Positions 969 to 43,248 of a DNA stretch of 64,000 nucleotides are shown one piece after another. Made by a program: the position numbers and the translations under genes. How positions within the stretch are numbered: position 1 is the stretch's first letter; every line of letters begins with the position of its first letter. The DNA lies in NCBI GenBank assembly GCA_013177995.1, contig JABLXN010000016.1:1-64000 (forward strand), written 5' to 3'. The stretch is from Brevinematales bacterium (GTDB lineage Bacteria > Spirochaetota > Brevinematia > Brevinematales > Thermospiraceae). The notes under the pieces were generated by a model, which was given only the letters and a program-made list of their open reading frames with translations, was not told where the DNA came from and searched no databases.

Positions 969-1250
969 ATGATACCCTTTGAAAAGGTTGCAGGAAAAGA
1001 CAAAGGAGACATCAAACTCTTTGCCCTCAGCACCTGTATCTGGTGCAGAAAAACCCGTCGCCTTTTAGAAGAACTTGGGGTAGCCTATGAATATGTGTAT
1101 GTTGACCTCCTCGATGTGGACAGCAAAAAAGAAACCCTTGCAGAACTCACCAAATGGAACGCTGATTGTTCCTATCCGACGCTTGTTCTCAACAACAAAA
1201 CCTGTATCATTGGCTTTGAAGAAGAGGATATCCGAAAAAATCTTTCATAA
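969..1250 (+). CDS. Glutaredoxin-like thiol-disulfide protein
   Basis: A 93-residue cytoplasmic thioredoxin-fold protein with CIWC (Cys-x-x-Cys) near the start of the first helix, a YPT cis-proline motif (SYPTLVL) and a GFEEEDI ending typical of glutaredoxin-like proteins. The frame is open from 852, but ATG 969 has AAGGAGG at the right distance, giving the usual family length. It lies 16 bp upstream of the ferredoxin:disulfide reductase gene and is probably co-transcribed with it, so it is the likely disulfide partner of that enzyme. The substrate proteins are unknown. Confidence 0.85.
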
Positions 1251-1266
1251 AAACAAGGGGGAAACT

Positions 1267-1749
1267 ATGAACAAAGAACGTATTGATGCACTTTACCAGA
1301 AACTCAAAAAAGAAGCCGAAGCTAGTGGATACCACTTGAATCCCGATGAAGCCTTCACCAAAGAACTTGTCGAAAGCCTCCTCATTAACGAAGAGAGATA
1401 CGGTTATCCAAGCTGTCCCTGTCGTCTCTCTACAGGCATCAAAGAAGAAGACCTGGACATCATCTGTCCCTGTGATTACCGTGATCCGGATCTCATCGAC
1501 TACGGCACCTGCTATTGTGGTCTCTATGTCTCTCAGGAGGTAATCGACGGGAAGAAAAAACTCTCCTCCATCCCCGATAGACGGAAAAAAGAAAAAAAGA
1601 AAAAAACAGAAACTACCCCTCTCACAGAAAAACTTGCTTACCCCATCTGGCGATGCAAGGTATGTGGCTATCTCTGTGCGAGAGAAAATCCCCCCGAAGT
1701 GTGTCCGATATGCAAAGCCTCAAAGGAGAGATTTGAAAGGTTTTTGTAA
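1267..1749 (+). CDS. Ferredoxin:thioredoxin (disulfide) reductase catalytic subunit fused to rubredoxin-like domain
   Basis: 160 residues. The N-terminal ~95 residues show the FTR catalytic signature: CPC, then CPCDYRDPD, then CYCGLY. These supply the [4Fe-4S] ligands and the redox-active disulfide. A lysine-rich linker (~95-125) leads to a C-terminal CKVCGY ... CPICKA rubredoxin-type Fe(Cys)4 knuckle. The start is ATG 1267 with GGGGGAAAC upstream; a longer open frame overlapping the glutaredoxin gene is rejected. FTR-rubredoxin fusions are known as ferredoxin:disulfide reductases in methanogens and some bacteria, where they pass electrons from ferredoxin to thiols. The adjacent glutaredoxin is the probable acceptor (inference). 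Confidence 0.9.
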
Positions 1750-1802
1750 GGTCTTTTTTCTACAATTTTCAAACAATCTTTTCCTCTTTCTACATAAGTA
1801 GC

Positions 1803-1988
1803 TGTCGTTCCACATATCAGACTGAATACCTCTTTTCACATTTCCTATGAACAGGGAAAGAACACAAAGTTCTTTGTCCTGGTGGATGGGGGGGGATGAG
1901 ATAGCCGCTTTTGAACCCATGTCTGTGAGATAGGCTATGATCATGTTTCAGCTAAACAAAGGGTATTTGCTGAAACAAAGTAATAGCC
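1803..1988 (+). repeat. Truncated left end of the IS1202-derived non-autonomous element
   Basis: Begins TGTCGTTCCACATATCAGAC and matches the left 180 bp or so of the elements at 15323, 20052 and 39508, including the internal GTTTCAGC hairpin (1933-1988). It lacks the GC-rich core and any right end, so it is a remnant. The 1750-2146 interval contains no gene. Confidence 0.7.
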
Positions 1989-2048
1989 ACCGCCAAAAAG
2001 ACAAGCCCACCGGCTGCTGAGAAAAAACCTCTCCTTCACCCCAAAATC

Positions 2049-2078
2049 GAGACCTTCGCACAAATGTACAAGGGTCTC
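2049..2078. repeat. Solo MITE-type hairpin
   Basis: GAGACCTTCGCAC and ACAAGGGTCTC form the same end-hairpin as the MITE-like family, but the ~170-bp body is missing. It lies about 70 bp upstream of the lytic transglycosylase start, where it may act as a transcript hairpin or be a deletion derivative. Confidence 0.6.
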
Positions 2079-2146
2079 AAATCTGGTATTTTTACCACTT
2101 TTCCTGTATACTAATAGCCATTCAAACACTTTTTTGAGGAGTCAAC

Positions 2147-6837: not shown

Positions 6838-6913
6838 ATCAACCTCCCACCACATACCTCACTATATTATACGACAGGGCAGAGAAAAAAGTGAAGAAAA
6901 AAGAAGAATTTTC

Positions 6914-8296
6914 CTATGCCTTTGAGAGAAATCTGTCTATAGCCTTTGCCGCCTGTTTCCCATGGCCGGCCGCAAGAATCACCGTGGCGGCTCCAAGAAC
7001 CACATCTCCTCCAGCAAACACCCCGGGAAGAGACGTCTGGAGATCCTCATCGACAACCACGTGCCCCTTAGCATCGAGAGAAAGCCCCTTGATACTCTCA
7101 AGAAGGATTCGATTGGTATCAAGTCCAATAGCATTGATTACCATATTAGCCGGCAGGGTGAAGTAGTCCCCCTCGACCGGCAGAAAACACCTTCTCCCCC
7201 GTTCATCAGGTTCTCCTAAAACCATGCGCTGGCAGGTGAGAGAAACCACATTCCCCTCTTCATTCCCTTCTATCTTCACCGGAGCCGCTAAAAAGTGGAA
7301 TCGAACCCCTTCTTCCTCCGCATGAGCAATCTCTTCCACACGGGCCGGCATCTCTTCTCTACCGCGACGATAGACCACTGTCACCGAACGAGCCCCCATC
7401 CGCAGAGCACTTCTGGCCGCATCCATAGCCACGTTTCCCCCACCAATCACCACCACATCTCCTTTCACCTCTAATGGCGTATCATACAATCCAAAATGGT
7501 AGGCTTTCATCAAATTGATACGGGTAAGAAACTCATTGGCCGAAAAGACATCTCGAAGATTCTCCCCGGGAATATGAAGGTATTTGGGAAGCCCTGCTCC
7601 TGTCCCCAAAAATATGGCATGAAAATCCCTCTGAAGCTCCTCAAAGGTGATCGTTCTTCCTACAAGCACATTGGTCTGAAACTCAACCCCGAGCTCTTCC
7701 AAGTAAGCTATCTCTCTTTGCAATACCTCTTTGGGCAAGCGAAACTCCGGGATACCGTAGAGAAGAACTCCTCCCAAGCCGTGGAGGGCCTCAAACACCA
7801 CCACCTCATGGCCAAGCCGTGCAAGCTCTCCCGCACAGGTGAGGGAAGCAGGACCAGAACCAATCACAGCCACCCGTTTCCCCGTCCTGTTTGCTTTCAC
7901 CACCCTTTTTTGTGTGGTATCCCCCACAAACCGCTCTAACTTTCCTATTTGAACAGGGTCCCCCACACGACCCATGGTACAGCGCTTCTGACACTGAATC
8001 TCCTGAGGACAAACCCGCCCACACACCGAAGGAAGGGGGTTATCCTCAAGGATAATAGCAATAGCCTCATCGACTCGTTCATCGACAATCTTTTGAATAA
8101 ACTGGGGGATCTTGATATGCACAGGACAATCTTCCACACAAGGGGGATTCTTGCACTGAAGACAACGGAGAGCCTCTTTCTTCGCCTCATCAGGAGAGTA
8201 CAGAAGTTCTACCTCCCCAAAGTCATGAATTCTCTCTTCCGCTGGTCTCTGCCTCACCGGTACTTTTGTTTTTTGTAGTGTCTTTTTCTCACTCAC
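6914..8296 (-). CDS. NADPH-dependent glutamate synthase small-subunit-like oxidoreductase
   Basis: 460 residues. The N-terminal domain has CLQCKNPPCVEDCP and CGRVCPQEIQCQKRC (two Fe-S clusters). It is followed by FAD-binding VAVIGSGPASL (~145) and NAD(P)H-binding VVVIGGGNVAMDAAR (~285), and ends with a FAD-contact GDVVLGAATV. This is the GltD/GltA family. No large glutamate synthase subunit or NfnA partner is nearby, so it may act alone, as the standalone spirochaete/thermophile proteins do, or pair with a distant subunit. It starts at GTG 8296, 3 nt after the gpmA stop, with AAGGAG inside the end of gpmA, so translation is probably coupled. Confidence 0.85.
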   Translation of the reverse strand: MSEKKTLQKTKVPVRQRPAEERIHDFGEVELLYSPDEAKKEALRCLQCKNPPCVEDCPVHIKIPQFIQKIVDERVDEAIAIILEDNPLPSVCGRVCPQEIQCQKRCTMGRVGDPVQIGKLERFVGDTTQKRVVKANRTGKRVAVIGSGPASLTCAGELARLGHEVVVFEALHGLGGVLLYGIPEFRLPKEVLQREIAYLEELGVEFQTNVLVGRTITFEELQRDFHAIFLGTGAGLPKYLHIPGENLRDVFSANEFLTRINLMKAYHFGLYDTPLEVKGDVVVIGGGNVAMDAARSALRMGARSVTVVYRRGREEMPARVEEIAHAEEEGVRFHFLAAPVKIEGNEEGNVVSLTCQRMVLGEPDERGRRCFLPVEGDYFTLPANMVINAIGLDTNRILLESIKGLSLDAKGHVVVDEDLQTSLPGVFAGGDVVLGAATVILAAGHGKQAAKAIDRFLSKA

Positions 8297-8299
8297 AGG

Positions 8300-8962
8300 T
8301 TACTCCTTTTTCCAGCCATTGTCCCAGTGATAGACAAGAGGCGTGGCATGAGGTATCTCAAGATGAACCACCTCTTCTGGAGAGAGATGATCAAGAAGCA
8401 TCACAATAGACCGCAAACTATTCCCATGGGCACTCACAATCACTTTCTTGCCTGCCTGTACTGCCGGTACAATCACCCGTTTGAAGAAAGGAATAGTGCG
8501 TTTGGCTGTCATCTCAAGCGACTCCCCACCAGGTGGTGGCACATCATAACTCCGTCTCCAGAGGGTAAATTGCTCTTCACCGTAGCGCTTTTTTGTTTCC
8601 TCTTTGTTCAATCCCTGAAGTCTCCCATAATAGCGCTCATTGAGACGGCTGTCCGTGTAGATGGGGAGAACCGCCTGTTTGGCTTCCTCACTATAGATAC
8701 GTCCCCACCGTTTTTCCTTTCCCCTGTGAGACATCACCACAGGGGTTTTCTTCTGAAAGGCAAGTACAAGAAGAAGAGTCTCCATCGCCCGTACTAAGGT
8801 GGATGTATAGGCCACATCAAAGTCCACATCGGCAAGGCTTCGCCCACAGGCAAGGGCTTCTTCAATACCCCGTGGAGTGAGAGACACATCCACCCACCCG
8901 GTAAACCAGTTGCGATTATTCCAGGTCGATTCCCCGTGTCGAACAAGATAGAGACTCCCCAT
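8300..8962 (-). CDS. gpmA: 2,3-bisphosphoglycerate-dependent phosphoglycerate mutase
   Basis: 220 residues. LVRHGESTWN carries the phosphohistidine (His9), GWVDVSLTPRG follows, and PPPGGESLEMTAKR and VSAHGNSLRS complete the dPGM signature. It interconverts 3- and 2-phosphoglycerate in glycolysis, cofactor-dependent. It lies second in a three-gene minus-strand operon directly after the unrelated cofactor-independent mutase gpmI (8-bp gap) and before the gltD-like gene. Two analogous enzymes in one transcript is unusual. Confidence 0.95.
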   Translation of the reverse strand: MGSLYLVRHGESTWNNRNWFTGWVDVSLTPRGIEEALACGRSLADVDFDVAYTSTLVRAMETLLLVLAFQKKTPVVMSHRGKEKRWGRIYSEEAKQAVLPIYTDSRLNERYYGRLQGLNKEETKKRYGEEQFTLWRRSYDVPPPGGESLEMTAKRTIPFFKRVIVPAVQAGKKVIVSAHGNSLRSIVMLLDHLSPEEVVHLEIPHATPLVYHWDNGWKKE

Positions 8963-8970
8963 ATCTTCTC

Positions 8971-10596
8971 CTAAAACTCAATCAGAGAAGGATCATACTC
9001 TTCAGGCTTTTCATAGCCAAGCAGATTCAAAAGAGTAGCCGCCACGTTAGAGAGCCCTGCTTTGGGAAGCTGTCGCATATGGTATTCGTTTTGATAGCCA
9101 TAATCCACAATAATAAAAGGAACTTTGTTCAGGGTATGAGCCGTCTTCACCTCTCGTTTGCCATTTTTCTCGGTAAACATTTCGTCCGCATTCCCGTGAT
9201 CCGCTGTCACGACCACAATACCACCTAACTTTTCCACCTCTTCAAGAAGTCTGCCCACACACCTGTCCACCGTTTCCACGGCCTCAATGGCTGCCTCCAT
9301 AACACCGGTATGTCCGACCATGTCTCCATTGGCAAAATTAAGACGGCCAAACTTGTACTGCCCGCTTCTGAGAAGTTCAATCGTTTTTTCTGTGATTTCG
9401 TTCGCCTTCATAGCGGGGGCTTTGTCAAACTGGATCTTATCCGAAGGAATTTCAATATAGGTTTCCAGTTTCTCATCAATGTATCCTGAGCGGTTTCCAT
9501 TCCAGAAATAGGTCACATGCCCGAACTTCTGGGTCTCGGAAATAGCAAAGCTTCGAATACCTGCGGCACACATGTACTCACTCACCGTTTTCGTAATCAC
9601 AGGGGGCTGAACAAGAAATCTCGAAGGAAGCTTGAGATCCCCATCATACTGCATCATTCCGGCGAAGACCACCTTGGGATAGCGTTCCCGATCAAATTTG
9701 TCAAAATCAGGATATTCAAAAGCCATGGAAATCTCAATGGCCCTATCTCCACGGAAGTTAAAGAGCACCACACTATCTCCATCTTCGATGGTTCCTACAG
9801 GCTTGCCGTTTTCTCCAATCACAAAAGCAGGAAGATACTGATCGGTAATCTTGGGATCCTCAGCGTACATCGTTTCTACAGCCTCACGGGCAGAAGAAAA
9901 CATCCTGCCCTTTCCAAGCACATGGGCATCCCATCCCCGCTTCACAATATTCCAATCAGCAAAGTAACGATCCATGGTGGTCACCATTCTCCCACCACCT
10001 GAAGCAATTCGATAATCCACACCATACTTGGTGGAAATCTCTTTCAGCACGGCTTCTATTTTGTCAATATATATCAGGGCTGACTTTTCTGGCACATCCC
10101 GACCATCCAGAAGGGCATGCACACGGGCTTTTTTTATTCCTTCTTTTGCCGTTTGCCAGAGAAGGGCAATGAGATGATCGATGTGGGAATGCACATTCCC
10201 ATCGGAGAGAAGACCGATAAAATGAAAGGTACCACCAGAAGACTTCACCTGCCCCACCAGTTCTCTCCAAACCTCTGTCTGGAAGATACTTCCATCCCCG
10301 ATAGCTTCATTCACTCGTTTAGCCCCCTGAGAAAACACACGTCCAGCTCCAAGGGCATTGTGCCCTACCTCGCTATTGCCCATATCCTCATCACTCGGAA
10401 GACCAACCGCCGTCCCATGAGCCTGCAATTCCGTATAAAGGGGCATCTTGAAGAGCCTGTCCAAGGTTGGGGTATGGGCTTTGTACACCGCATTGCCCTC
10501 GGTTGGCTTGCCAAGGCCTATCCCATCCATGATAATAAGAAGAAGTGGTCCCGGACGACCACGAAAATTCTGAAGTGGTTTAAGTGACAGTGACAT
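8971..10596 (-). CDS. gpmI: 2,3-bisphosphoglycerate-independent phosphoglycerate mutase
   Basis: 541 residues, alkaline-phosphatase superfamily. LLIIMDGIGLG carries the first metal-binding Asp. EDMGNSEVGHNALGAG contains the catalytic serine. LLDGRDVPEKSAL and VVTADHGNADEM supply substrate and Mn ligands. It is slightly longer than the typical ~510 residues. First gene of the gpmI-gpmA-gltD-like operon. ATG 10596 is preceded by AAGGAGG, and a promoter lies at 10623-10651. Confidence 0.95.
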   Translation of the reverse strand: MSLSLKPLQNFRGRPGPLLLIIMDGIGLGKPTEGNAVYKAHTPTLDRLFKMPLYTELQAHGTAVGLPSDEDMGNSEVGHNALGAGRVFSQGAKRVNEAIGDGSIFQTEVWRELVGQVKSSGGTFHFIGLLSDGNVHSHIDHLIALLWQTAKEGIKKARVHALLDGRDVPEKSALIYIDKIEAVLKEISTKYGVDYRIASGGGRMVTTMDRYFADWNIVKRGWDAHVLGKGRMFSSAREAVETMYAEDPKITDQYLPAFVIGENGKPVGTIEDGDSVVLFNFRGDRAIEISMAFEYPDFDKFDRERYPKVVFAGMMQYDGDLKLPSRFLVQPPVITKTVSEYMCAAGIRSFAISETQKFGHVTYFWNGNRSGYIDEKLETYIEIPSDKIQFDKAPAMKANEITEKTIELLRSGQYKFGRLNFANGDMVGHTGVMEAAIEAVETVDRCVGRLLEEVEKLGGIVVVTADHGNADEMFTEKNGKREVKTAHTLNKVPFIIVDYGYQNEYHMRQLPKAGLSNVAATLLNLLGYEKPEEYDPSLIEF

Positions 10597-10622
10597 AAAT
10601 CCTCCTTCTCAAAAAGCCCTAT

Positions 10623-10651
10623 ATTATGGAGAAAAGCGTGATTTTTTGCAA
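10623..10651 (-). promoter_or_regulatory. Promoter of gpmI operon
   Basis: On the minus strand, TTGCAA (10646-10651), a 17-bp spacer, then CATAAT (10623-10628). The IS1202-like element is inserted 22-23 bp upstream of the -35 and leaves the core promoter intact. Confidence 0.6.
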
Positions 10652-10691
10652 GTTTTCTAAAATTCTCCTCTGACATCTTTCTTTTCGTACC

Positions 10692-12058
10692 TGTCGTTCC
10701 ACATAGGAAACTGAATACCTATTTTCACATTTGACAAAGAAGGGGCAACGAAGGGATAATAAGGAGGAACTATGAAGAGGAGGAAGAAGTATATGGTTAA
10801 ATCGAAGGTAAAGAGATTACAAGGATTCTTTGTTCAAGTTCAGAAAAGGGAAATTTCTTTAGGTTGGGTGGCAAGAAAACTTGATATAAGCCGATCCTGG
10901 GTTACCGTTTTGTATCAAAGATTCTGTCGAGGAGAAAATCTTGTTCGGCAAAGAACATCCAGAAAGTCAAAGCTTGAGCAAAAGCATATAGCCCTTATTC
11001 TTGAAACATACGAAGAACTGGCCATTGAAAAAGAGAATAAACAGAAAGAGTACCCTTCGGTAAGGATTCTTTCCAGCACCTTATATGAGCTTTACAAGGA
11101 TTTTCCTAAGGTTTCAGATGAAACTATTCGGAGAGTGCTAAAAAAATTCTTTGTCCATTATCCTGAGCGAGCAAGGCATCACTACCGCAAAAGGTGGCAG
11201 GCAGAAGCCATAGGCGAGATTGTGCAGGCAGACGTTTCCATTCACCCATGGCTTGAAAAGAAACCCGCTTTTCCGCTCCTTTTGATTATGGACGACCATT
11301 CTCGTTATGTTCTTGCTGCTAAGTTTTTATCCCAGGACACAATAGAAAACCATATGCCAGTTTGGCAGGAGGTTTTCTCTGAGTATGGTTTACCCTACAA
11401 GGTGTACTATGACAATGACCCAAAGTACTCTAAAAAGAATAATGGCCTCATAGCCACTGCGTTTGAGGAACTGGATATTTGTGTCGTTAATTCCAGACCT
11501 TATCAACCCCAGGGCAAGGGGAAAATTGAGCGTAAAATCCAGACATTCCAGAAACAACTCACTTTTTACCTCAAGAAAACCTTGAAAAAGCAACGCATTG
11601 AAACCCTGGAACAACTGAACTGGATTTTGAGAGAATATGTCATAGAGCACAATAAGACGCCTTCTCGAGCCCTTGATGGACGAACTCCCGAAGAAGTATT
11701 CTCAGAGGCTCGTAGAAAGCCTCAGAAAGACCTTTTTAAGCCCTTTACAGCCACCCCTGAACAGTTTGAAAAGGCTTTTGCGTTTCGAGCTTTTCGCAGG
11801 CTGGATAAAACTTATGAGGTTTCGTATAACGGCCATAAATATCGGGTTCCAAAAGAGAATGCTTTTCGGGTATTGCCTGGCGTCAACATCGAAGTAAGAG
11901 AATTCCCAGGGAAATGGGTGAAACTGTTTTACAAAGGTGAGGAGATAGCCCGTTATCCATGGAAAGAAAAAGTTGAAAATTCCACCAGGTAGAGGTACAC
12001 TTATGAGGTATTCAGTTTCTATGTGGAAATACCCCTTCTGTTAATGTGTGGAACGACA
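10692..12058 (+). mobile_element. Complete IS1202-like (ISTde1-type) insertion sequence
   Basis: 1367 bp. The termini are TGTCGTTCCACA at the left and TGTGGAACGACA at the right (perfect 12-bp inverted repeats). A second subterminal inverted match follows (AAACTGAATACCT inside each end). The flanks are an exact 18-bp direct repeat, CATCTTTCTTTTCGTACC, at 10674-10691 and 12059-12076, the target duplication. Long duplications of this size are, to my knowledge, typical of the IS1202/ISTde1 group and not of IS481. It contains a single intact transposase. The perfect duplication implies a recent insertion. Confidence 0.9.
10772..11992 (+). CDS. DDE transposase of the IS1202-like element
   Basis: 406 residues. 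An N-terminal helix-turn-helix (~25-55, SLGWVARKLDISRSWVTVLY) is followed by an rve-type catalytic core. Acidic residues are visible as VQADVSIHPW (Asp154), YYDNDPKYS (Asp214) and GKIERKIQTF (Glu253), with ILREYVIEHN-KTPSRALDGRTPEEVF after them as in IS481/IS1202-like enzymes. The C-terminal ~70 residues form a beta-rich tail. ATG 10772 follows AAGGAGG. The gene is complete and could mobilise the related non-autonomous elements in this window. Confidence 0.9.
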   Translation: MKRRKKYMVKSKVKRLQGFFVQVQKREISLGWVARKLDISRSWVTVLYQRFCRGENLVRQRTSRKSKLEQKHIALILETYEELAIEKENKQKEYPSVRILSSTLYELYKDFPKVSDETIRRVLKKFFVHYPERARHHYRKRWQAEAIGEIVQADVSIHPWLEKKPAFPLLLIMDDHSRYVLAAKFLSQDTIENHMPVWQEVFSEYGLPYKVYYDNDPKYSKKNNGLIATAFEELDICVVNSRPYQPQGKGKIERKIQTFQKQLTFYLKKTLKKQRIETLEQLNWILREYVIEHNKTPSRALDGRTPEEVFSEARRKPQKDLFKPFTATPEQFEKAFAFRAFRRLDKTYEVSYNGHKYRVPKENAFRVLPGVNIEVREFPGKWVKLFYKGEEIARYPWKEKVENSTR

Positions 12059-12161
12059 CATCTTTCTTTTCGTACCATGTGGGATTCCTTATGTGGCTTC
12101 CAGCGACTACACCATAGGAGAAAAAATCACCATGATATGGTATATGACAAACCGATAGTAG

Positions 12162-12203
12162 ACATACACCCACGCTAAACAGGCATGGGTGTATGTTTTA
12201 TTA
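12162..12203. terminator. Hairpin terminator between IS and M16 gene
   Basis: ACATACACCCA (12162-12172) pairs with TGGGTGTATGT (12186-12196) across a 13-nt loop, followed by TTTATTA on the plus strand. It can end plus-strand readthrough from the IS. On the minus strand it lies just downstream of the M16 stop, where the T-run is weak. Confidence 0.65.
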
Positions 12204-12240
12204 TTGAAATATATCACTTATAATATATTAGAATATTAAA

Positions 12241-14838
12241 CTATTTACCAATAACAATCGTTTCTTTCCCTATAGGAAAGGCTACAGGGACAAGTTTTCG
12301 CAACTCCTCTCTGTCTGTCTCATACACGTACTTCAAAAACACAAGGGTATAATCATAACGCCCACGACAGGCTTCGTTATAAGCCAACCGAGAAGCTATC
12401 GTTTCAAAAGAACGAAATCCAAAGACCTCTTCTGCATACGTCCTCATCTTGTGCTGAAGCAGTTCCTCTTCCCTGGGCCCAACCTGCTGAAAGGCTTTGA
12501 GTTTTCTCTGGTACATCGCCAGAATATCCTCTACTTTCTCCTTGAAGGTGGTAAACTCACAAACAAAAAGCGCTTCTCCCACGCGAAAAGAGGGAAGAGA
12601 GAGATCACTTTCAATATGGTAGGTGAGCCCCTGATTTTCCCGAATATCGTCCATAAGCCACGAAGAAAATCCAGCTCCTGCAAAAATAGTATTCAAAAGA
12701 AGCCCCTGAACCCATTGTCTCTCATTTGTATAACTAATTCCCCACTTTCCGGCAATAATACCTATTCCCTGTTCTCCAGGAACCGCAATCTCAAAAATTT
12801 TCTGTTTCTGCTCCTTTTTGAAAACAGTGGTTTGAGGTTTGAGAAAAGATGAGGGCGGATTCCATGAAGAAAAGGTTTTTTCCATGGTGGAGATGAGTTC
12901 CTTTTCATCAATATCTCCAACCACGGAGATCACCATGTTTTCTGGTCGAACAAGGGCATAATAGATTTCTTCAATATCCTTAATCTGCAGAGAAAGAATA
13001 TCAGCAGGGGTGGCCACCCTATCCTGATACACAAATTCCTGGAAAAGCTGTTTATTTACCAGATTCCCAACATGATACGAAGGACTGGGATTATTTTTCT
13101 CCTCTTTATATCGAAGAATATACTGCTCCTTCATCTCTTCCAGCACAAGAGGAGAAAATCTACGGTTGGTATACATCCGTGCGATATACTCTACCGCCTT
13201 TTTCCAGTCCTCGGCATACACATTCACACTGTATTCCGATCCCCATGCTCCCTTTGCTTCTAACTGTTTTCTGATAGTATATTGGGGACCACCTTCTCTC
13301 AGATACCACTGCATAAACGTAAGTTGATAGGTTTTTTTCTGCCGGGGGGCATCATCCCGAAACTCCCAGGCAAAAGAGACCATCCCCTGCCCAGGAACTG
13401 GTTTCACAAGAATCACCATCCCATTGGAAAGCTGATAACGCCTCACATCCCCAAAAAACTCCCGCTGGTAATGAAGAATATCCTTATAGAGTTCCTCGTG
13501 TCGCGCTTGTAATGTCTTTTGATCTATCTCAGAAAAACTTCCGCTTCTGCTCCCGGCTTCAAAATTCTCCACCGTCTGAAAACTTACGGACAACACTTTT
13601 TTCCTCTGGTCAAATTGTGTGGCGGTAAAATACCCCGAAAGGGCATTGGTGGAAACAAGAACCCTTCGCATGAAATCGTACACCTCATCCGCCGTCACGG
13701 TATCAAAAAGGCCCATCCAGCGTTTGATATCGGATACCTCTCCATACCGCAAGAACGAACTCAAGAGCATTCCCCTCTCTTCGATATCATTTTTTTGAAG
13801 CCTGTATCGATGATAGAGGGTCTCACGGGCTTTTTTGAGTTCACTCTCCACATACTTTTTGTCAATATCCCTGCCGGGGAAAAAAGGTGATCGCTCATAT
13901 GTGAGGGAAAGAAGGGTGGCATCAAGGCCAAAATCTGCCTTCATCCCTCGGACAAGACCCCCATCCACCACAAGATAGGCAAGAAGAATATCCCGATTGG
14001 TATAAGAAAACCCCGGTAACCCAAAGAAAAGCCTCCCAAAGCTATCCTCCGAAGGTCCACTCAGGGACACCACCTGTCCCGGTTGAAAAGAGACCGAAGC
14101 GACCATCTCTTTTGGAAGATGAGGATTTGCAGGAATAGAAGAAAAATACTTTTCCATCAAGCGTACAAGTCTTTCCTTTTCCACGTTTCCAATCACCACC
14201 ATAAAGGCATTGTTAGGCACATAGTATGTGCGGTAGAGTTTCACCACCTCATCATAGGAAGCATTCAAAATATCCTTCGCTCTCCCCGGTCCCCACCGAA
14301 AAGCATCCTGGGGAAGAAATTTCTCCATCATCGCCATCTCAAGTTGAAATGAGGGACTGGCCTCATACCCGCTCAGTTCATCGGCTACTACCTTTTTCTC
14401 TCGCTCAAACTCCTGTCTATCAAAGAGAAGATCTCTCATCCTATCCGCCTCTACCGCCAAAATAACCTCAAGGCTTGCTACCGAGCCAAAACCGTAGTAC
14501 AGGGTCATATCATGGCCCGTATAGGCATTGTACCGAATTCCCTCCTGGCCATAGATCTGATGAAGAAAACCCTTCGGATAACGAGGACTCCCCTTGAACA
14601 TCATATGTTCTAAAAGATGCGTATATCCTCGCTGATTGGTCATTTCATTATGAAAACCCACCTTGTATACCACAGAAACAAAAACAAGCGGGGTAGAAAC
14701 GTCCCTCTGAAAATACACTACAAGCCCATTGGAAAGACGAATGCTCTCAATATTCTGAAGAAAGGGAAGATTTTCCCATTCAAGGGCCCATAACCTGACA
14801 AAAACAAAAACGAAACAAACAAGAAGGTATTTACGCAT
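12241..14838 (-). CDS. M16 family zinc metallopeptidase (two-domain, exported)
   Basis: 865 residues with an N-terminal signal peptide (MRKYLLVCFVFVFVRLWA). The first M16 domain has the inverted zinc motif HLLEH followed by MMFKGSPRYPKG, with a downstream glutamate in AVEADRM. A second M16-like half starts near residue 460 (YQLSNGMVILVKPVPG). The length matches two-domain, pitrilysin/PqqL-like peptidases. It acts outside the cytoplasm, probably in the periplasm, on unknown peptides. It follows the CBM48 lipoprotein with 1 nt between stop and ATG and its own GGAG inside that gene, so the two are coupled. Confidence 0.9.
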   Translation of the reverse strand: MRKYLLVCFVFVFVRLWALEWENLPFLQNIESIRLSNGLVVYFQRDVSTPLVFVSVVYKVGFHNEMTNQRGYTHLLEHMMFKGSPRYPKGFLHQIYGQEGIRYNAYTGHDMTLYYGFGSVASLEVILAVEADRMRDLLFDRQEFEREKKVVADELSGYEASPSFQLEMAMMEKFLPQDAFRWGPGRAKDILNASYDEVVKLYRTYYVPNNAFMVVIGNVEKERLVRLMEKYFSSIPANPHLPKEMVASVSFQPGQVVSLSGPSEDSFGRLFFGLPGFSYTNRDILLAYLVVDGGLVRGMKADFGLDATLLSLTYERSPFFPGRDIDKKYVESELKKARETLYHRYRLQKNDIEERGMLLSSFLRYGEVSDIKRWMGLFDTVTADEVYDFMRRVLVSTNALSGYFTATQFDQRKKVLSVSFQTVENFEAGSRSGSFSEIDQKTLQARHEELYKDILHYQREFFGDVRRYQLSNGMVILVKPVPGQGMVSFAWEFRDDAPRQKKTYQLTFMQWYLREGGPQYTIRKQLEAKGAWGSEYSVNVYAEDWKKAVEYIARMYTNRRFSPLVLEEMKEQYILRYKEEKNNPSPSYHVGNLVNKQLFQEFVYQDRVATPADILSLQIKDIEEIYYALVRPENMVISVVGDIDEKELISTMEKTFSSWNPPSSFLKPQTTVFKKEQKQKIFEIAVPGEQGIGIIAGKWGISYTNERQWVQGLLLNTIFAGAGFSSWLMDDIRENQGLTYHIESDLSLPSFRVGEALFVCEFTTFKEKVEDILAMYQRKLKAFQQVGPREEELLQHKMRTYAEEVFGFRSFETIASRLAYNEACRGRYDYTLVFLKYVYETDREELRKLVPVAFPIGKETIVIGK

Positions 14839-14839
14839 A

Positions 14840-15223
14840 CTATTTCTCCTGACCTACTACGACAATAACAGAATTATACCCACCAAAACCATCTATCTCC
14901 ACATCCGGATTTTCTGGATCGGCAATCCAGAAACCATCCATGACAAATTTGTAGGCATACTTTCTTCCTCGAACCAGAGAAAGGCTCACCCTCCAGACTC
15001 CATCATCTCCTTTGACAAGAGGGGTACTCTCTGGATTCCAGCCATTAAAGGTACCGGCAATCGTCACCGATTCAGCTTCAGGAGCGTAGAGAGAAAAGAT
15101 GACCATATTCCCGCTGACCACAGGGGCATAAGGACCTCGAATCCCTTTTGCCCGGGGAAGATTCACCGTCTGATTTCCACACGCGAAAAACACAAGACAT
15201 ACACCAAGAAGCCACTTTTTCAT
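14840..15223 (-). CDS. Small lipoprotein with CBM48/AMPK-type glycan-binding domain
   Basis: 127 residues. The signal ends in VFFAC (Cys15). The rest is one E-set domain: VIFSLYAPEAESVTIAGTFN, GWNPESTPLVKGDDGVW and YAYKFVMDGFW-ADPENP are the classic isoamylase-N/CBM48 strands with the tryptophans used for alpha-glucan contact. It is likely tethered to a membrane and may bind carbohydrate or be structural. ATG 15223 follows AAGGAGG. The promoter is at 15255-15283. First gene of a two-gene unit with the M16 protease; the functional link is unknown. Confidence 0.85.
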   Translation of the reverse strand: MKKWLLGVCLVFFACGNQTVNLPRAKGIRGPYAPVVSGNMVIFSLYAPEAESVTIAGTFNGWNPESTPLVKGDDGVWRVSLSLVRGRKYAYKFVMDGFWIADPENPDVEIDGFGGYNSVIVVVGQEK

Positions 15224-15254
15224 TCTGTCCTCCTTGCAAATTCTTCATGACATC

Positions 15255-15283
15255 AGTATAGCCAAAACTCACATTTTTTTCAA
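15255..15283 (-). promoter_or_regulatory. Promoter of the CBM48-M16 unit
   Basis: On the minus strand, TTGAAA (15278-15283), 17-bp spacer, TATACT (15255-15260), about 30 bp upstream of the lipoprotein start. Confidence 0.65.
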
Positions 15284-15322
15284 AAATAAGAGTACTGTAC
15301 GAAGGGGAAAAAGTCTCAAAAC

Positions 15323-16198
15323 TGTCGTTCCACATATGAAACTGAATACCTATTTTCGCATTTCCTGTGAAGGGACATAACATAAAAGCTTTCTGTTCTG
15401 GTGCCTATTCAAAAAAGTTGCGCTTAAAAGCATTACGGCAAGATAGGGCTATTACCCTGTTTCAGCTAAACCATGGTTCTTTGCTGAAACAAGGTCATAG
15501 CCCCCGGGCCCTGGTGTCTTGGAAAGTCTCCTTCTTGCTGAAACATCGCCATAGCCCTCGCCCCTGCCGCGGTGCGCCCTCAGAGAAACCCCGTGGGAAC
15601 AGAAGCCCTGTGGGCTGGTGGGAGAGGGCCATGTTTTTTGCTCCCCTTTTTTTCTGTAACCCCACTTCGACTTCGCTCAGTATCCGCCTGGGCGCTTTTG
15701 CGGTTATGAAAAGGGCCCTTTGGTTTCCGACGGGAAAGTCCTTCCGACGGGAGGGCACAGGAGGTGCCCGGGGCGACCTCTTCTGTTGCTCTGCCCGAAA
15801 AGCCCACCGAAGCGTAGCCGCGGGGCCCCGCTTTGGCGGGGAATCGGCAGAGCGAGGTGGGCGCTATGCTTCCGAAGTCAGGAGGACAAGTTGAGGTCAC
15901 CCACGGAGGAAGGACTTGCCCTGGGGAGTGGGATTTCTCACTACCCCCAAAAGCGGCCCATGTTCCGTCCTCGTCGCATGCGTAGCATGCGACGAGGACA
16001 AAACCCTTCTGGAGCCGCTGCAGGGGCGGGGTGGGGCTTTCAAAAGGGACGAAGCCCCTTTTGCCCCGCGCGGGAGCGCTTCGTGAAAGTAAGGAAGATG
16101 AATAACAAAAAGAACCCAAAACTGAAAGAGAAAAGATGGTCGAACAAGTATTCAGTTTTTGTGTGAAGATAACCATTCTGTATGAATGTAGAACGAAA
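15323..16198. mobile_element. Non-autonomous IS1202-derived element, copy A
   Basis: 876 bp bounded by TGTCGTTCCACA and TGTAGAACGAAA, matching the ends of the intact IS at 10692-12058, including the subterminal AAACTGAATACCT / AAGTATTCAGTTT. A 15-bp direct repeat AAAAAGTCTCAAAAC flanks it (15308-15322 and 16198-16212), as expected for this IS group. It has no transposase. It contains a GTTTCAGC hairpin (15447-15502), a GC-rich foldback core (15690-15959) and a perfect 15-bp-arm hairpin around GCATGCGTAGCATGC (near 15975-16000). The large overlapping open frames are not conserved in frame between copies. Confidence 0.85.
15690..15959. repeat. Nested inverted-repeat core of copy A
   Basis: Left arms in order: GGCGCTTTTGCGG, AAGTCCTTCC, GGGCGACCTC (15771-15780), GCCCACC. 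Centre: CCCCGCTTTGGCGGGG. Right arms in mirrored order: GGTGGGC, GAGGTCACCC (15893-15902), GGAAGGACTT, AAAAGCGGCCC. All pairs are concentric. Copy A has a C-G pair where copies B and C have A-T in the third stem. Confidence 0.8.
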
Positions 16199-16218
16199 AA
16201 AAGTCTCAAAACCATTTT

Positions 16219-16420
16219 GAGACCTTTGCACATTCGTGCAAAGGTCTCAAAAAAGTAATAAAGAAACAAAAATTAGTATCAAAATGTCCCTTGCCGTAAT
16301 AAATAAACCGATTTTTTTGAATAAAAAAGACAAAGCAGCCCTTGTGAACAGAAAAATCGGGGTTTCAGGGGCGCAGCCCCTGACCCAAACAGGGGAAGAA
16401 AACACCCATGCAAGGGTCTC
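16219..16420 (+). repeat. MITE-like element, copy 2
   Basis: 202 bp. The left hairpin is GAGACCTTTGCAC / GTGCAAAGGTCTC and the right end is TGCAAGGGTCTC. ATTTT flanks it exactly (16214-16218 and 16421-16425), a 5-bp target duplication. The middle carries GGGGCGCAGCCCC. It lies 20 bp right of element A and 25 bp upstream of the ankyrin-gene promoter. Confidence 0.9.
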
Positions 16421-16444
16421 ATTTTCTAAAAAACATTTCAAATA

Positions 16445-16473
16445 TTGCAAAAAATTCTCATTCCCATTATCCT
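16445..16473 (+). promoter_or_regulatory. Promoter of the ankyrin lipoprotein gene
   Basis: TTGCAA (16445-16450), 17-bp spacer, TATCCT (16468-16473), 45 bp upstream of the ATG. Confidence 0.5.
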
Positions 16474-16517
16474 ACTGCTATACAAATCCTCCCTGAGGAA
16501 AAAAATGGAGGTGTTTT

Positions 16518-17666
16518 ATGAAACACACAGTAAAAATCTTTCTCGCCGTGCTGGTCGGAACCTTGGTTCTGGGGTGTAACTCGATGAGACCAGAAGAAAG
16601 ACAGGCTCTTCTTCTCAAGGCAAGCTATAATGGGGACCTCGCCACGGTAGAAAAACTCCTCACTGATGGGGTAGATGTCAATGCTCGTATGGGGGAAGAG
16701 GGATACTTTGCTCTCCAGGCAGCCGCCAACAACAACCAGCTCGCCGTGGTCAAAAAACTTCTTGCCGCCGGTGCTGATCCTCATCTTCTCTCCTATACCC
16801 TGTGGAGTGCGTTAGGCGAAGCCTGTTATGAAGGTCATATCAATATCGTGTATGCCTTGGTAGAACATGGGGTAAATATCGAACAAAAGATTACTTCCAA
16901 TCAAGCCACCGTTCTCTCCATTGCAGCCAGCCGGGGACATAGTGATATTGTGAGCTACCTTTTACAGAAAAAAGCCAACACTGAAGCCAGGGATAGTGAA
17001 GGTTGGACCGCTTTGTTTTTTGCCATCAGAAACAACCAGAAAGAAATCGTACAACTCCTTGTAGAAAACAAGGCCAATGTGAATGCCACAGCGGATGATG
17101 GTTATACCCCTCTCATGTGTGCCGCCCGCTGGTCAGATGTAGAAACCATCCAGTACCTCCAGTCCAAAAATGCTCAGGTGAAAGCCAAAGACAAAGATGG
17201 CTGGACAGCCCTTTTCTATGCAGCCATGGGTGGAAGTCTTGAAAATGTACAATATCTTGTCGAACAAGGTCTGAACATCAACGACAAAGAATCTGACCTC
17301 TGGACTCCTCTCTTTCTTGCCGCCAAACACGGTCATCTCTCCATCGTCAAATATCTCGTTGAAAAAGGGGCTGAAGTAGATGCCGTAAACAACAAAGGGT
17401 GGACTCCTTTCTTCCATGCCTGCAGGGAGGGTCACTATGAAATAGCCAAATACCTCCTTGAGAAAGGTGCCAGTATCAACAGAAGATCCAAAGAACAGGT
17501 GACTCCTCTGATGCTTGCCGCCTATGGGGGCAATCTCCAGATTGTCAAACTCCTTGTGGAAAATGGTGCCAATGTCCATGCCAAAGATGAAGACGGAGAA
17601 GAGGCTATTGACTGGGCAAGAGAAGCCAAAAACACCCAGATTGTGAATTATCTGAAGCAATTTTAG
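16518..17666 (+). CDS. Ankyrin-repeat lipoprotein
   Basis: 382 residues. The signal peptide ends in LVLGC (Cys20). About ten ankyrin repeats of 33 residues follow (for example DGYTPLMCAARWSDVETIQY, SDLWTPLFLAAKHGHLSIVK, VTPLMLAAYGGNLQIVKLLV). There is no other domain. It is likely a membrane-anchored protein-binding scaffold in the periplasm or at the surface; its partner is unknown. ATG 16518 has GGAGG upstream. Its own promoter (16445) and a strong terminator (17687) make it monocistronic. Confidence 0.9.
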   Translation: MKHTVKIFLAVLVGTLVLGCNSMRPEERQALLLKASYNGDLATVEKLLTDGVDVNARMGEEGYFALQAAANNNQLAVVKKLLAAGADPHLLSYTLWSALGEACYEGHINIVYALVEHGVNIEQKITSNQATVLSIAASRGHSDIVSYLLQKKANTEARDSEGWTALFFAIRNNQKEIVQLLVENKANVNATADDGYTPLMCAARWSDVETIQYLQSKNAQVKAKDKDGWTALFYAAMGGSLENVQYLVEQGLNINDKESDLWTPLFLAAKHGHLSIVKYLVEKGAEVDAVNNKGWTPFFHACREGHYEIAKYLLEKGASINRRSKEQVTPLMLAAYGGNLQIVKLLVENGANVHAKDEDGEEAIDWAREAKNTQIVNYLKQF

Positions 17667-17686
17667 ACATAACAAAAAAGCTATAT

Positions 17687-17724
17687 GGGGACTGTGGCAA
17701 AAAACACCACAGTCCCCTTTTTTT
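17687..17724 (+). terminator. Rho-independent terminator
   Basis: GGGGACTGTGG pairs with CCACAGTCCCC across a 9-nt A-rich loop, followed by seven T. It ends the ankyrin gene transcript. Confidence 0.95.
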
Positions 17725-17773
17725 GAGTATCCGCTCTCTGAACGCAAAAGCTCTTGCCATATTCTCTCAATTC

Positions 17774-17802
17774 TTGCCAAAAAAAGCTTTTTTGCCTACA
17801 AT
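17774..17802 (+). promoter_or_regulatory. Promoter of tmk
   Basis: TTGCCA (17774-17779), 17-bp spacer, TACAAT (17797-17802), 26 bp upstream of the tmk ATG. Confidence 0.6.
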
Positions 17803-17828
17803 AAGAAGAAAGAAAAAAGGAAAAAACC

Positions 17829-18440
17829 ATGTTTATCACCTTTGAAGGCATTGAAGGATGTGGTAAATCCACACAGGCACGGTTGCTTTTTGAAAGAATA
17901 CAAAAAGAAGGCTTTCCGGTTCTTCTCACCTACGAACCAGGAGATACACAGGTTGGGAAAAAACTGAGAGAAATCCTTCTCTCCGAAAAGATGGATTCCC
18001 TCACTGAACTTCTTCTCTTCCTTGCTGATAGAAGGGAGCACGTGATTTCTCTCATCAAACCAGCCCTTCTCAATCAAACCATTGTTATTTCAGATAGATA
18101 TATCTATTCTACCTTAGCCTATCAGGTCTATGGAAGGGGACTCAAAAAACACTTCGTTGACACTCTTCATAGAGAGATTTTGGACAATACCTTTCCTGAC
18201 AGGATTTATGTCCTTGATCTTGAGGTGGAGAAAGCCTTTGAGAGAAAGAAATCCCATACCTTTGATCGAATCGAACAGGAGTCTATTTCCTTCCACCAGC
18301 GAGTGAGAAAGGGCTTTTTAGAACTGGCTCAGGAAAATCCCAATGCCCGTATTCTTGATGCCACTCTCCCCGTTACCCATCTTCATGACATCATCTGGAA
18401 AGACATTCACACACTCCTCACCGCACGGAGGAAGAACTGA
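17829..18440 (+). CDS. tmk: Thymidylate kinase
   Basis: 203 residues, phosphorylating dTMP to dTDP. The P-loop EGIEGCGKST (residues ~6-15), DRYIYSTLAYQ (DR-Y/F motif) and a lid region are present. The TYEPGDT segment replaces the usual REPGGT, a modest deviation in the dTMP-binding loop. The TGA overlaps the ATG of the next gene by one base (TGATG), so the two are translationally coupled. Confidence 0.9.
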   Translation: MFITFEGIEGCGKSTQARLLFERIQKEGFPVLLTYEPGDTQVGKKLREILLSEKMDSLTELLLFLADRREHVISLIKPALLNQTIVISDRYIYSTLAYQVYGRGLKKHFVDTLHREILDNTFPDRIYVLDLEVEKAFERKKSHTFDRIEQESISFHQRVRKGFLELAQENPNARILDATLPVTHLHDIIWKDIHTLLTARRKN

Positions 18441-20014
18441 TGGAAAATAGTGTATGGAAACTTTTCCTTGATGCCTATACCAAAATCCAGTGGAAAACCA
18501 ATCTCCTTGAAAATCAGTGGCCTTCTATAGAATTAGCCCGCCTGAGTCGTCAGATTGAAAACGAGTTTTACTACAAACGCTTTCTCAGGCGTTTTCATCT
18601 CCCCTGGGGGAAAATGTTTTTTTACCAGCGGGCAAGAAAAAAACACCCTGAGGATTTTCCCCCTCTCATGAGATGGGAAAATCTCCGTATAGAAACAGCC
18701 GGGGCTTACCCGACAGGTAACCTTCTTTCGCAAACAGAACTGATAGGATATTTCCACGATATTTCCTCTCAGTTCTCCCCTGACATGGGCAATCCCCCTT
18801 CACCCCTTCCCCCTCTGTGGAAGGTGATAAACGAAACACTGAAAAGTATTCTCTCTGCCTTTCAACAGTCCCCACGTCAACCCTCATGGTTCACCGATCT
18901 TAGTCATCTCTCTTCTGACCTCTTTGCCTGCTATGATCTTGCCCTCTATATAGCTCAGCTCTGGCAGTATGCCTCTCAGAACAAAATCTCCTTCCTCAGG
19001 TCTGGACAAATCCTCTGGTGGTGCGAAAAGAGTTATACCCTCGGTACCAATATTCATAGTATTCTCTCGAAAGAAGGGCTTTTGGCCATCACCATCTCCT
19101 CTGAAAAAACCCTCTATACCGCCTTCCACGTATGGCTTGAGAAAATGCGAGAGCTAAGACTTCGTCTTCTTCTTGATATGTATCAACCTCTTTTTTCTGA
19201 TGAGCACCTTTCTCTTCAGGTGATTAACGATGAGATTGTCATTGAGGATCTCTCCCCTCTCCCACCGACATGGCTTTCTCGTCTCTTTGATAGACTCTTT
19301 CCACCCCCCCAAGTGCCTCGTATCGCCACCTTTCGCCATCCCCCCTCTCGACCAGAACCCGCCTCTCGACCTCTCCCTGAGATGGTCCAGGAAGTTATCA
19401 GCAGGCCATCCCCTGAAGAACTCGATTGGGAGAGTGTTATCTTTGAAGCAAAAGATTTTCTGAGACTCAGGCAACTGCTGAAGGATTTTCTTTCTATGAT
19501 GGTAAGTGACCTCTCACCAAAATACAATAGTCAAGGACAACTCATCGAAAGTAAGCACCTCTTTGATCAGTTTGATGTCCCTCCTCTCATGCGTCGTCTC
19601 GAAAGGGGGCGTTTCCTGCTGAAAGGGAAAATCAAAGGGCTCTCTCCCCTTGAACTCCAGGAAAAAGACGACCTTGTCATCAAATCCACTCACTGGCTTT
19701 ATGATAGAATCCATGATCTCTTAGAACGCTATAGTTTCTCCCCCACGGGAGTACGTGGAGAGCAGGGAAGACATTTTGCTGAAGAGGTTCAATCCCTTTT
19801 CACCACCTCAAGTGAAGAGTACAATGAAGTAAGAAAATATGGAACATTTACTCAATTCAGGTTCAATGTAAAAAGGATTTTCTCGTCCTTGAGCATCCAG
19901 AGCCGTTATCTCACCCACATCTCCCAGATTGAGAATCTTCTTTCTAAGCTCAAGGAGACCATAGCCACAGAAGAAATACGCCTTCTCAAAGCACGACCCT
20001 CCTCTCAATCGTAA
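18440..20014 (+). CDS. Unknown protein coupled to tmk
   Basis: 524 residues, not recognised. It has no signal peptide or clear membrane segment. It is rich in aromatic and charged residues, with a proline-rich segment around 275-320 (DRLFPPPQVPRIATFRHPPS). The flanks are predicted helical, with a C-terminal coiled-coil-like stretch (HISQIENLLSKLKETIATEE). It begins at the A of the tmk stop codon, so it depends on tmk translation. A cytoplasmic scaffolding or accessory role is possible, but nothing in the sequence identifies one. Confidence 0.75.
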   Translation: MENSVWKLFLDAYTKIQWKTNLLENQWPSIELARLSRQIENEFYYKRFLRRFHLPWGKMFFYQRARKKHPEDFPPLMRWENLRIETAGAYPTGNLLSQTELIGYFHDISSQFSPDMGNPPSPLPPLWKVINETLKSILSAFQQSPRQPSWFTDLSHLSSDLFACYDLALYIAQLWQYASQNKISFLRSGQILWWCEKSYTLGTNIHSILSKEGLLAITISSEKTLYTAFHVWLEKMRELRLRLLLDMYQPLFSDEHLSLQVINDEIVIEDLSPLPPTWLSRLFDRLFPPPQVPRIATFRHPPSRPEPASRPLPEMVQEVISRPSPEELDWESVIFEAKDFLRLRQLLKDFLSMMVSDLSPKYNSQGQLIESKHLFDQFDVPPLMRRLERGRFLLKGKIKGLSPLELQEKDDLVIKSTHWLYDRIHDLLERYSFSPTGVRGEQGRHFAEEVQSLFTTSSEEYNEVRKYGTFTQFRFNVKRIFSSLSIQSRYLTHISQIENLLSKLKETIATEEIRLLKARPSSQS

Positions 20015-20051
20015 GGATGATGCCCTTTTGAGCCATTTCTCAAGACCGACG

Positions 20052-20823
20052 TGTCATTCCACATATGAAACTGAATAGCTATTTCCACATTTCTTATGAG
20101 CAGGGAAACAACACAAAAGTTTTCTGTTCTGATGCCTATTGAAAAAAGTTGAGTTTGAAAGCATTACAGCAAGAGAGAGCTATTACCCTGTTTCAGCTAA
20201 ACCATTGTTCTTTGCTGAAACAAAGTCATAGCCATCGCCCCTGCCGCGGTGCCATATCCAAAAAGCCTCTTCTGAAAAAGAAGCCCTGCGGGCTGGTGAA
20301 AGAATGCCTGGTTCTTTTATCACCCCTTTTTTTCTGTACCCCACTTCGACTTCGCTCAGTATCCACCGGGCCGCTTTTGCGGTCGTGTGCTCTTTGTTGT
20401 AAGGTGGAAGTCCTTCCGGAGTGAGGGTGCAGGAGGCACCCGGGGCGACATCTTTTGTTGCTTTTTCTCAAAAGCCCACCGAAGTGGAGCCGCGGGGACC
20501 CCGCTTTAGCGGGGAATCGGCAAAGCGAGGTGGGCGTTATGCTTCCGAAGTCAGGAGGACGAGTTGATGTCGCCCACGGAGGAAGGACTTCCCCGGAAAG
20601 AGATGAGGTCTTTCTACTTGCCCGCAAAAGCGGCCCATTTTCCGTCCGAGGCGCATGCGTAGCATGCGACGAGGACAACGCCCCTTTTGCCCCGCGCGGG
20701 AGCGCTTCGTGGAAAAAAGGAAGATGGGTAACAAAAGAGCCTAAAACTGAAAGAGAAAAGATGGTTAAACAAGTATTCAGTTTTTGTGTGAAGATAACCA
20801 TTCTGTATGAGTGTGGAACGACA
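20052..20823. mobile_element. Non-autonomous IS1202-derived element, copy B
   Basis: 772 bp, termini TGTCATTCCACA and TGTGGAACGACA. A 17-bp exact direct repeat ATTTCTCAAGACCGACG flanks it (20035-20051 and 20826-20842), extendable to 19 bp with one mismatch. It contains a GTTTCAGC hairpin (20179-20233), the foldback core (20368-20636) and a GCATGCGTAGCATGC hairpin. Compared with A and C it lacks about 60 bp after the GTTTCAGC hairpin. No transposase and no frame-conserved gene is present. Confidence 0.85.
20368..20636. repeat. Nested inverted-repeat core of copy B
   Basis: Concentric pairs: GGGCCGCTTTTGCGG (20368-20382) with CCGCAAAAGCGGCCC (20622-20636). GGAAGTCCTTCC (20406-20417) with GGAAGGACTTCC (20581-20592). 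GGGCGACATC (20443-20452) with GATGTCGCCC (20566-20575). GCCCACC (20474-20480) with GGTGGGC (20529-20535). Central hairpin CCCCGCTTTAGCGGGG (20499-20514). Every pair is perfect in this copy. Confidence 0.85.
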
Positions 20824-20863
20824 CAATTTCTCAAGACCGACGATATAAATTTTCCTCTCCCCA

Positions 20864-26962: not shown

Positions 26963-27160
26963 GAGACCCTTGCACGGGCATTTTCTCCTGTCTTGGTCAG
27001 GGGTTACACCCCTGAAACCCCACTTTTTCTGTTTAGAGAGGCTTATCTGTCTTTTTTGTTCAAAAAGAAAAAATTATTTATTATGAAGAAGGATATTTTT
27101 ATACTATTTTTTCGTTTTTTATTACTTTTTGAGAACTTTGCACATTCGTGCAAAGTTCTC
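26963..27160 (-). repeat. MITE-like element, copy 3, at an operon junction
   Basis: 198 bp, reversed orientation: GAGACCCTTGCACG at the left and hairpin GAGAACTTTGCAC / GTGCAAAGTTCTC at the right. CTTAT flanks it exactly (26958-26962 and 27161-27165). On the minus strand this 5-mer, ATAAG, carries the DUF4416 stop TAA on one side and the AAG of the thioesterase Shine-Dalgarno on the other, so both neighbours remain functional. Confidence 0.9.
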
Positions 27161-27161
27161 C

Positions 27162-27737
27162 TTATGAAGGTTTTTTTTGACTCACTGTGGCTCTATGAGG
27201 AATATTTCCCCCTATGGCTTTTAACTGGGCATAATAGAGTTCCCGAATATGGAGAAGAATCTTCTTGTACATCTCACTGGCATAATCCGGATAGGTCCAC
27301 GGCCAGGATTGCCAGCTTTTCTTTTGATAATGCAAGGTCACCTCGGCGTAGATCCCCCTGGCTAAATAGATCCTGTGCATCTGGTCCTTGGTGGTAGCCA
27401 GAATAAACTTGCCCATCTGCATATAACCAGGATCTAAGTTGACAAGTCGCCTTCCCTCAAACGCCAATTCCTCTTCAAGGGCATTGGTGGTAAGTTTGAT
27501 ATCCACCAATGCCTCTGGCTGAATGAGACGCTCAAAAGAAAGAAACGTCCGAAAAATAGGAAGCCCCATCTCCTCATCATAATAATGGGTAAAGGTGAAA
27601 ACAAAAGGCTCACACTCATAATCTACAGGGCCATACAAATTCAATAGTCGCTTTCTTGCTTCCGTATAACGACGCTCATCAGAGAAGAGAATCCCTATCA
27701 CCAGTTTCACTGGCTCATGCTCAATGGCTTTTCCCAT
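27162..27737 (-). CDS. DUF4416 family protein
   Basis: 191 residues resembling DUF4416, a family I associate with spirochaetes and other anaerobes and sometimes labelled GTP-binding protein without proof. EPVKLVIGILFSDERRY begins the domain; LVNLDPGYMQMGKFILATTKD and RIYLARGIYAEVTLHYQ are conserved-looking cores. There is no signal peptide. It starts 13 bp after the beta-barrel gene, and its stop lies in the target duplication of MITE copy 3. The function is unknown. Confidence 0.8.
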   Translation of the reverse strand: MGKAIEHEPVKLVIGILFSDERRYTEARKRLLNLYGPVDYECEPFVFTFTHYYDEEMGLPIFRTFLSFERLIQPEALVDIKLTTNALEEELAFEGRRLVNLDPGYMQMGKFILATTKDQMHRIYLARGIYAEVTLHYQKKSWQSWPWTYPDYASEMYKKILLHIRELYYAQLKAIGGNIPHRATVSQKKPS

Positions 27738-43014: not shown

Positions 43015-43015
43015 T

Positions 43016-43218: not shown

Positions 43219-43248
43219 ATAATGGAAGAGTTTTCTGATATCTCTTTA

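Follow-up and report, generated by a model that had tools for sequence, protein, structure and literature searches.

The window analyzed here, a 64,000-nt stretch of the genome of a Brevinematales bacterium, carries at positions 20052–20823 a complete nonautonomous element of the IS1202 type, MITE-like in build, that we call copy B and whose RNA sense is the plus strand. Its boundaries, set from 32 aligned elements, give it a length of 772 bp, of which the nested inverted-repeat core reported in the initial annotation is merely the middle part. Copy B begins with TGTC(A)TTCCACAT... and ends with ...GTGTGGAACGACA, both common to an autonomous insertion sequence (IS) in the same window. It is flanked by target site duplications (TSDs) that are identical at 18 of 19 positions, CCATTTCTCAAGACCGACG on the left (20033–20051) and CAATTTCTCAAGACCGACG on the right (20824–20842). 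Two further complete elements lie on the plus strand: copy A at 15323–16198, with the TSD AAAAGTCTCAAAAC, and copy C at 39508–40332, delimited by the alignment of elements and by TSD analysis. A truncated left part of an element occupies 1803–1994 (+). The neighbor of copy A encodes a 382-aa ankyrin-repeat protein (16518–17666).

The autonomous IS (10692–12058, plus strand) is 1367 bp long, has the same ends as the elements, and is bounded by an exact 18-bp TSD, CATCTTTCTTTTCGTACC. Members of the IS1202 family encode a DDE transposase of 394–507 aa with Q seventh after the E, have TGT/ACA ends, produce TSDs of 3–5 bp, of >15 bp, or none, depending on the group, and share 25–60% identity with named members such as ISTde1 and ISAjo2 (PMC10132070). 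By ends, length, TSD class, and Q at E+7, the IS in the window appears to fit this family. Its outer ends, TGTCGTTCCACA...TGTGGAACGACA, read 5′-TGT and ACA-3′, its 406-aa DDE transposase (10772–11992, +) has Q at E+7 in the motif ...KIERKIQTFQ..., and its 18-bp TSD corresponds to the >15-bp group, whose members ISTde1 and ISCARN53/62/63 it resembles in these respects and in the lengths of IS and transposase. The transposase scores 132 bits against NCBIfam ISNCY_2, for which the cut-off is 250. Unlike what is described for the family, MITEs here outnumber the IS in the genome and carry a structured RNA of non-IS origin; the paper that defines the family makes no mention of MITEs (PMC10132070).

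Throughout the 2.38-Mb genome under study (G000), the element ends follow the pattern TGTCGTTCCACA (TGTC(G/A)TTCCACA), with 108 occurrences against 9 for a reversed control pattern. TSDs are 18 or 19 bp, and 18-bp TSDs flank many elements as well as two IS copies. The 32 complete elements extracted comprise 3 IS and 29 nonautonomous elements of 288–2410 bp, the latter with the terminal inverted repeats and TSD of their autonomous partner, as is characteristic of MITEs. Many other copies are decayed, truncated, or chimeric. The ends, TSDs, and copy number show that the element is a nonautonomous transposon, mobilized now or formerly by the IS1202-family transposase at 10692–12058. Since the sequence common to the IS and these elements is limited to the outer ∼41 and ∼51 bp, the interior of the element is cargo.

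A coding role for this interior was considered and rejected: some copies have long ORFs over the core, but these lack a Pfam match, and the indels that separate copies are not divisible by three. The interior is made up of two modular, swappable RNA domains, domain I (the reported core) and domain II, which occur singly, adjacent to one another, or one nested inside the other. The alignment of domain II holds 19 complete copies. In copy B it is incomplete, with a 5′ part at 20172–20330 (+), recognized by homology to full copies, and, at 20640–20710 (+), a conserved hairpin GTCCGAGGCGCATGCGTAGCATGCGACGAGGAC together with a 3′ remnant (GCGCGGGAGCGC, loop GGA). Rfam searches of the window and five loci at the gathering score matched neither domain, the comparison that had been proposed for the core among them, and on the element only chance-level matches appeared at E ≤ 5. 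It is in itself uncommon for an IS1202-type MITE to carry as its cargo a new family of structured RNA that has no relative in Rfam.

Domain I (20368–20636, +) is defined by its stems, by a 17-copy alignment with covariation, and by a homologue in a second species. Its core has 45 matches in the genome, of which 17 are nearly complete. The initial annotation described four perfect inverted-repeat pairs in copy B, and all lie where it placed them: 20368–20382/20622–20636 (15 bp), 20406–20417/20581–20592 (12 bp), 20443–20452/20566–20575 (10 bp), and 20474–20480/20529–20535 (7 bp). They surround a central hairpin, CCCCGC-TTTA-GCGGGG (CCCCGCTTTAGCGGGG; 20499–20514, +), whose stem in the second species is CCAUGCC/GGCAUGG. 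None of 200 dinucleotide shuffles folded as stably as the core (z = −6.6 on the plus strand and −7.7 on the minus strand). We confirmed the reported base change in the third stem, with A-T in copies B and C and C-G in copy A; the exchange is also seen across the genome, where 16 copies comprise 9 with AU, 6 with CG, and 1 unpaired. The reported conservation of core length, by contrast, holds among copies A, B, and C but not across the genome, where some copies contain a 28-nt insert and in others the center is deleted or replaced by domain II. Two hairpins were missing from the original list of stems, and both are candidate CsrA sites. The first, GGGTGC-AGGAG-GCACCC (20425–20441, +), with GGA in its apical loop and three adjacent covarying pairs, is the best-covarying helix. 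Its stem varies among copies (GGGTGC/GCACCC, GGGCAC-AGGAG-GTGCCC, GGACAC-AGGAG-GTGTCC) and differs again in the second species, whereas the loop stays AGGAG across copies (AGGAU in one). The second, GTC-AGGAG-GAC (20550–20560, +; loop GGA), is invariant in 16 copies, although an alternative pairing, CTTC/GGAG, is possible there.

The initial annotation took the nested repeats as a sign of selection on pairing, either as a large noncoding RNA or as a foldback recognized during transposition. Uncompensated stem changes are present in some copies but are outweighed: within the genome, 93% of stem cells pair in domain II and 98% in domain I, and two-sided changes exceed those in shuffles. Such compensation need not be RNA-based, however. 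Complementarity between arms that fold only as DNA could be maintained through template-switch correction or through selection favoring extruded hairpins, and copy A contains what looks like a one-step, DNA-level template-switch correction. At 15962–16004 it has GTCCTCGTCGCATGC where other copies have GTCCGAGGCGCATGC (GAGG → TCGT), which perfects the palindrome in a single step. Thus, within-genome covariation alone is no proof of RNA selection, and we therefore compared the mispairs that the stems tolerate. RNA tolerates G-U on one strand, whereas DNA has no such preference.

For this comparison the structure was derived from both strands with GU pairs forbidden, and mispair states were counted once per pair. 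On the plus strand, domain II stems contained 33 GU against 11 AC mispairs (p = 0.0013), and pairs with few true mismatches contained 28 against 5 (p = 7e-5); matching substitution classes in loops ran in the opposite direction (19 vs. 29; Fisher p = 0.0008 vs. domain II stems), all of these p values being approximate because the copies are related and the cells not independent. An excess of G-U over A-C in the stems, with no such bias in the loops, is something that DNA palindromes cannot explain, and it points to RNA-level selection on the plus strand of domain II. Domain I shows no strand bias within G000 (5 GU vs. 6 to 8 AC), a balance that a purely DNA-level process accommodates. The minus strand had first been suggested as the RNA by the folding of the whole of copy B (z = −8.4, vs. 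−5.3 for plus); the GU asymmetry, the GGA loops, and the stability of domain II favor the plus strand.

Highly diverged homologues of domains I and II are present in a single further species of the genus (G002), where stems are compensated and loops are kept. Across the two species, domain II has 28 pairs with 96.6% of cells paired, and 15 of these pairs are changed on both sides. Shuffles predict 8.2 two-sided pairs, with 0 of 500 reaching 15, and the covariation score is 0.398 vs. 0.144. In stem 6, for example, GCCCGGGG/CCCCGGGC has become GUCACGGC/GCCGUGAC. For domain I, the comparison yields 12 compensated pairs, 4 GU, 1 AC, and 1 mismatch. Both alignments were fitted to models and lean towards structure, and slid controls for domain II are 33–48% paired. 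That the fold and its GGA loops are kept between species while the stems change is a further argument against DNA-only foldbacks, an account already disfavored and, in our judgment, improbable. The claim of selection on pairing as a large noncoding RNA is supported by the within-genome compensation, the diverged homologues, and the strand asymmetry of domain II. The transposition-foldback half of that claim is not supported, because the IS has no more than the outer ∼41 and ∼51 bp in common with the element and because G002 has the RNA but lacks the IS: its only DDE proteins are distant, at about 25% identity, and the two loci tested gave no convincing IS ends.

The domain II homologues of G002 (L147, C1:386000–405500, 1–19501; L148, 2168500–2178500) lie on the gene strand in the spacers of a repeated gene array, which encodes NADase_transloc-domain proteins. 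Their position between the genes of this array would fit domains that predate the IS or move independently of it. The same homologue bears on the simplest view of the family, a plain decaying MITE with functionless GC-rich hairpins that owes its covariation to a few source elements. Truncated and chimeric copies are indeed numerous, and related copies do not give independent cells; a highly diverged homologue that retains both structure and loops in a species without the IS nevertheless makes this view very improbable. Beyond the genus, blastn searches of 59 relatives found nothing, covariance models R1 and R2 matched G002 alone among 41 genomes, and model R3, run on 296 genomes of the phylum, found G000, G002, and two weak matches in G138. 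A 19-mer pattern scan of genome contigs returned one spirochaete contig, apparently in a coding frame, and no RNA match; phage records gave no match.

CsrA is a FliW-controlled RNA-binding protein that represses flagellin, and CsrB and RsmZ are RNA sponges for it. The apical loops of the element RNA resemble CsrA sites. In domain II, 3.42 of 6.26 plus-strand apical loops per copy contain GGA, compared with 0.76 of 6.75 in shuffles and 0 of 7 on the minus strand; the excess in domain I is weak (1.0 vs. 0.54). Among whole elements, 18 of 26 have at least two GGA apical loops on the plus strand, and none do on the minus strand. Among the species compared, loop sequences are AGGAG, ANGGAG, AGGAU, AAGGAU, ACGGAU, and ACGGAG, while the stems around them are replaced. 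The alignments thus show the transposon cargo to be a predicted large, modular, plus-strand RNA whose stems are kept by compensation and whose apical loops keep GGA.

Published CsrA consensus sequences are RUACARGGAUGU in E. coli and mAwGGAs, located in loops, in C. jejuni (PMC6692469). The G002 sequence AUACAAGGAUGU matches the former, and the CANGGAG loops of G000 are close to the latter. Hairpins that retain GGA on replaced stems are CAC-AGGAU-GUG and AUAC-AAGGAU-GUAU in G002, and GGC-ACGGAU-GCC and UAC-ACGGAG-GUA in L149. The G000 genome has one csrA, near position 84022 of C1, which adjoins fliW, and its flagellins are FlaB-like, with one match to a spirochaetal flagellar protein, both pointing to a probable spirochaete host. 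Just upstream of the Shine–Dalgarno (SD) sequence, the G000 flagellin leaders contain CCCAC-AAGGAU-GUGGG, GAAGAC-AAGGAU-GUCUUC, and a weaker ACAC-AAGGAUG-GUGU, and two of the three flagellin leaders of G002 have a hairpin of the AC-AAGGAU-GU type. Together, the GGA loops, the consensus fit, the csrA-fliW pair, and the flagellin-leader hairpins lead us to propose that CsrA binds the transposon RNA, which would probably serve as a decoy. We infer the CsrA step from motif and context, transcription and an effect on the host are likewise inferred steps, and we assign a probability of roughly one half to a transposon-borne structured RNA that binds or titrates CsrA. Any transcription would proceed along the plus strand, in the direction from the left terminal repeat towards the right; the GGA hairpins of the RNA would serve as binding sites for the CsrA of the host, and, once expressed, the RNA would act as a sponge in the manner of CsrB or RsmZ. 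No sigma-70-type promoter was found in copy B. Alternatively, an element lying in a gene leader could place that gene under CsrA control; elements are, however, randomly oriented relative to codirectional neighbor genes (8 vs. 7), which in G000 speaks against so simple a role.

A selected RNA need not act through CsrA. It could bind another protein or the ribosome, or it could stabilize, insulate, or attenuate neighboring transcripts, and covariation and GU asymmetry require only selection on RNA. The element loops of G000 have GGAG where its flagellin leaders have GGAU, which would allow AGGAG to be a motif of the ribosome-binding type instead, AGGAG(G) being SD-like as well. A crude open-frame count around the 29 complete elements found 13 divergent gene pairs and 1 convergent pair. 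This arrangement is in keeping with local action on transcription and suggests that elements prefer, or are retained in, promoter regions. Yet the loops vary around GGA as CsrA sites do (AAGGAU, ACGGAU, ANGGAG) while the SD motif is not kept, and they have matches in the flagellin-leader hairpins of the host itself. We therefore regard a function apart from CsrA as rather unlikely.

It is useful to contrast the proposed CsrA ligand with known systems. Like CsrB, CsrC, and RsmX/Y/Z, it contains multiple stem-loops whose apical loops carry GGA, keeps this motif while the stems vary, and occurs in a host with CsrA. It differs in being larger, nested, and multidomain, with fewer GGA loops (about three per element), and in being spread through a fliW-csrA organism by a transposon. 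Having no Rfam homology to these RNAs, it would work like a CsrB-type ligand without being a member of the family. Its hairpins are nearly identical to the AC-AAGGAU-GU sites of flagellin leaders (hag, flaA, flaB), most clearly in G002, but lie outside such leaders, several to each mobile element. Correia/NEMIS, RUP, and ERIC are short, foldable intergenic repeats bounded by terminal inverted repeats; compared with these, as they are generally described, the present element is larger and modular, and it shows covariation between species as well as conservation of its loop motifs. A literature search pairing "miniature inverted-repeat transposable" with CsrA, covering few subscription journals, returned only the Rfam 12.0 database paper.

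If the GGA hairpins do bind CsrA, the consequences may be several. First, a bacterium of the FliW-CsrA type would possess an antagonist RNA. The FliW-type system of C. jejuni is described as having no antagonist sRNAs (PMC6692469), which counts against a decoy, and in Leptospira such an RNA is only suspected (PMC8668096). Second, a mobile element would be multiplying decoys for a global regulator. Finally, and more tentatively, the transposon family may be spreading a selected CsrA-binding RNA, as dozens of decoys that mimic flagellin leaders and could retune motility and metabolism where FliW is thought to be the sole control on CsrA, with domains that are older than the IS or independent of it.

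Two further sets of repeats were observed. In G138, which belongs to the same phylum but is distant, tandem GACANGGAUGUC and UAUACANGGAUGUAUA hairpins lie between flhA-like and flhF-like genes and near a proS-like gene (L160/L167, L161/L168). They may represent sites for CsrA or a distinct RNA that binds it, and the tandem ACANGGAUGU hairpins of this genome may have arisen as CsrA sites by convergence. In the window, a second dispersed family of GAGACCTTTGCAC...GTGCAAAGGTCTC palindromes, ∼100–220 bp long, occurs at 648–793, 16215–16425, 27018–27165, 43011–43226, 54672–54885, and 59298–59396, and is also inserted within some elements (C11, C18, and C7a).
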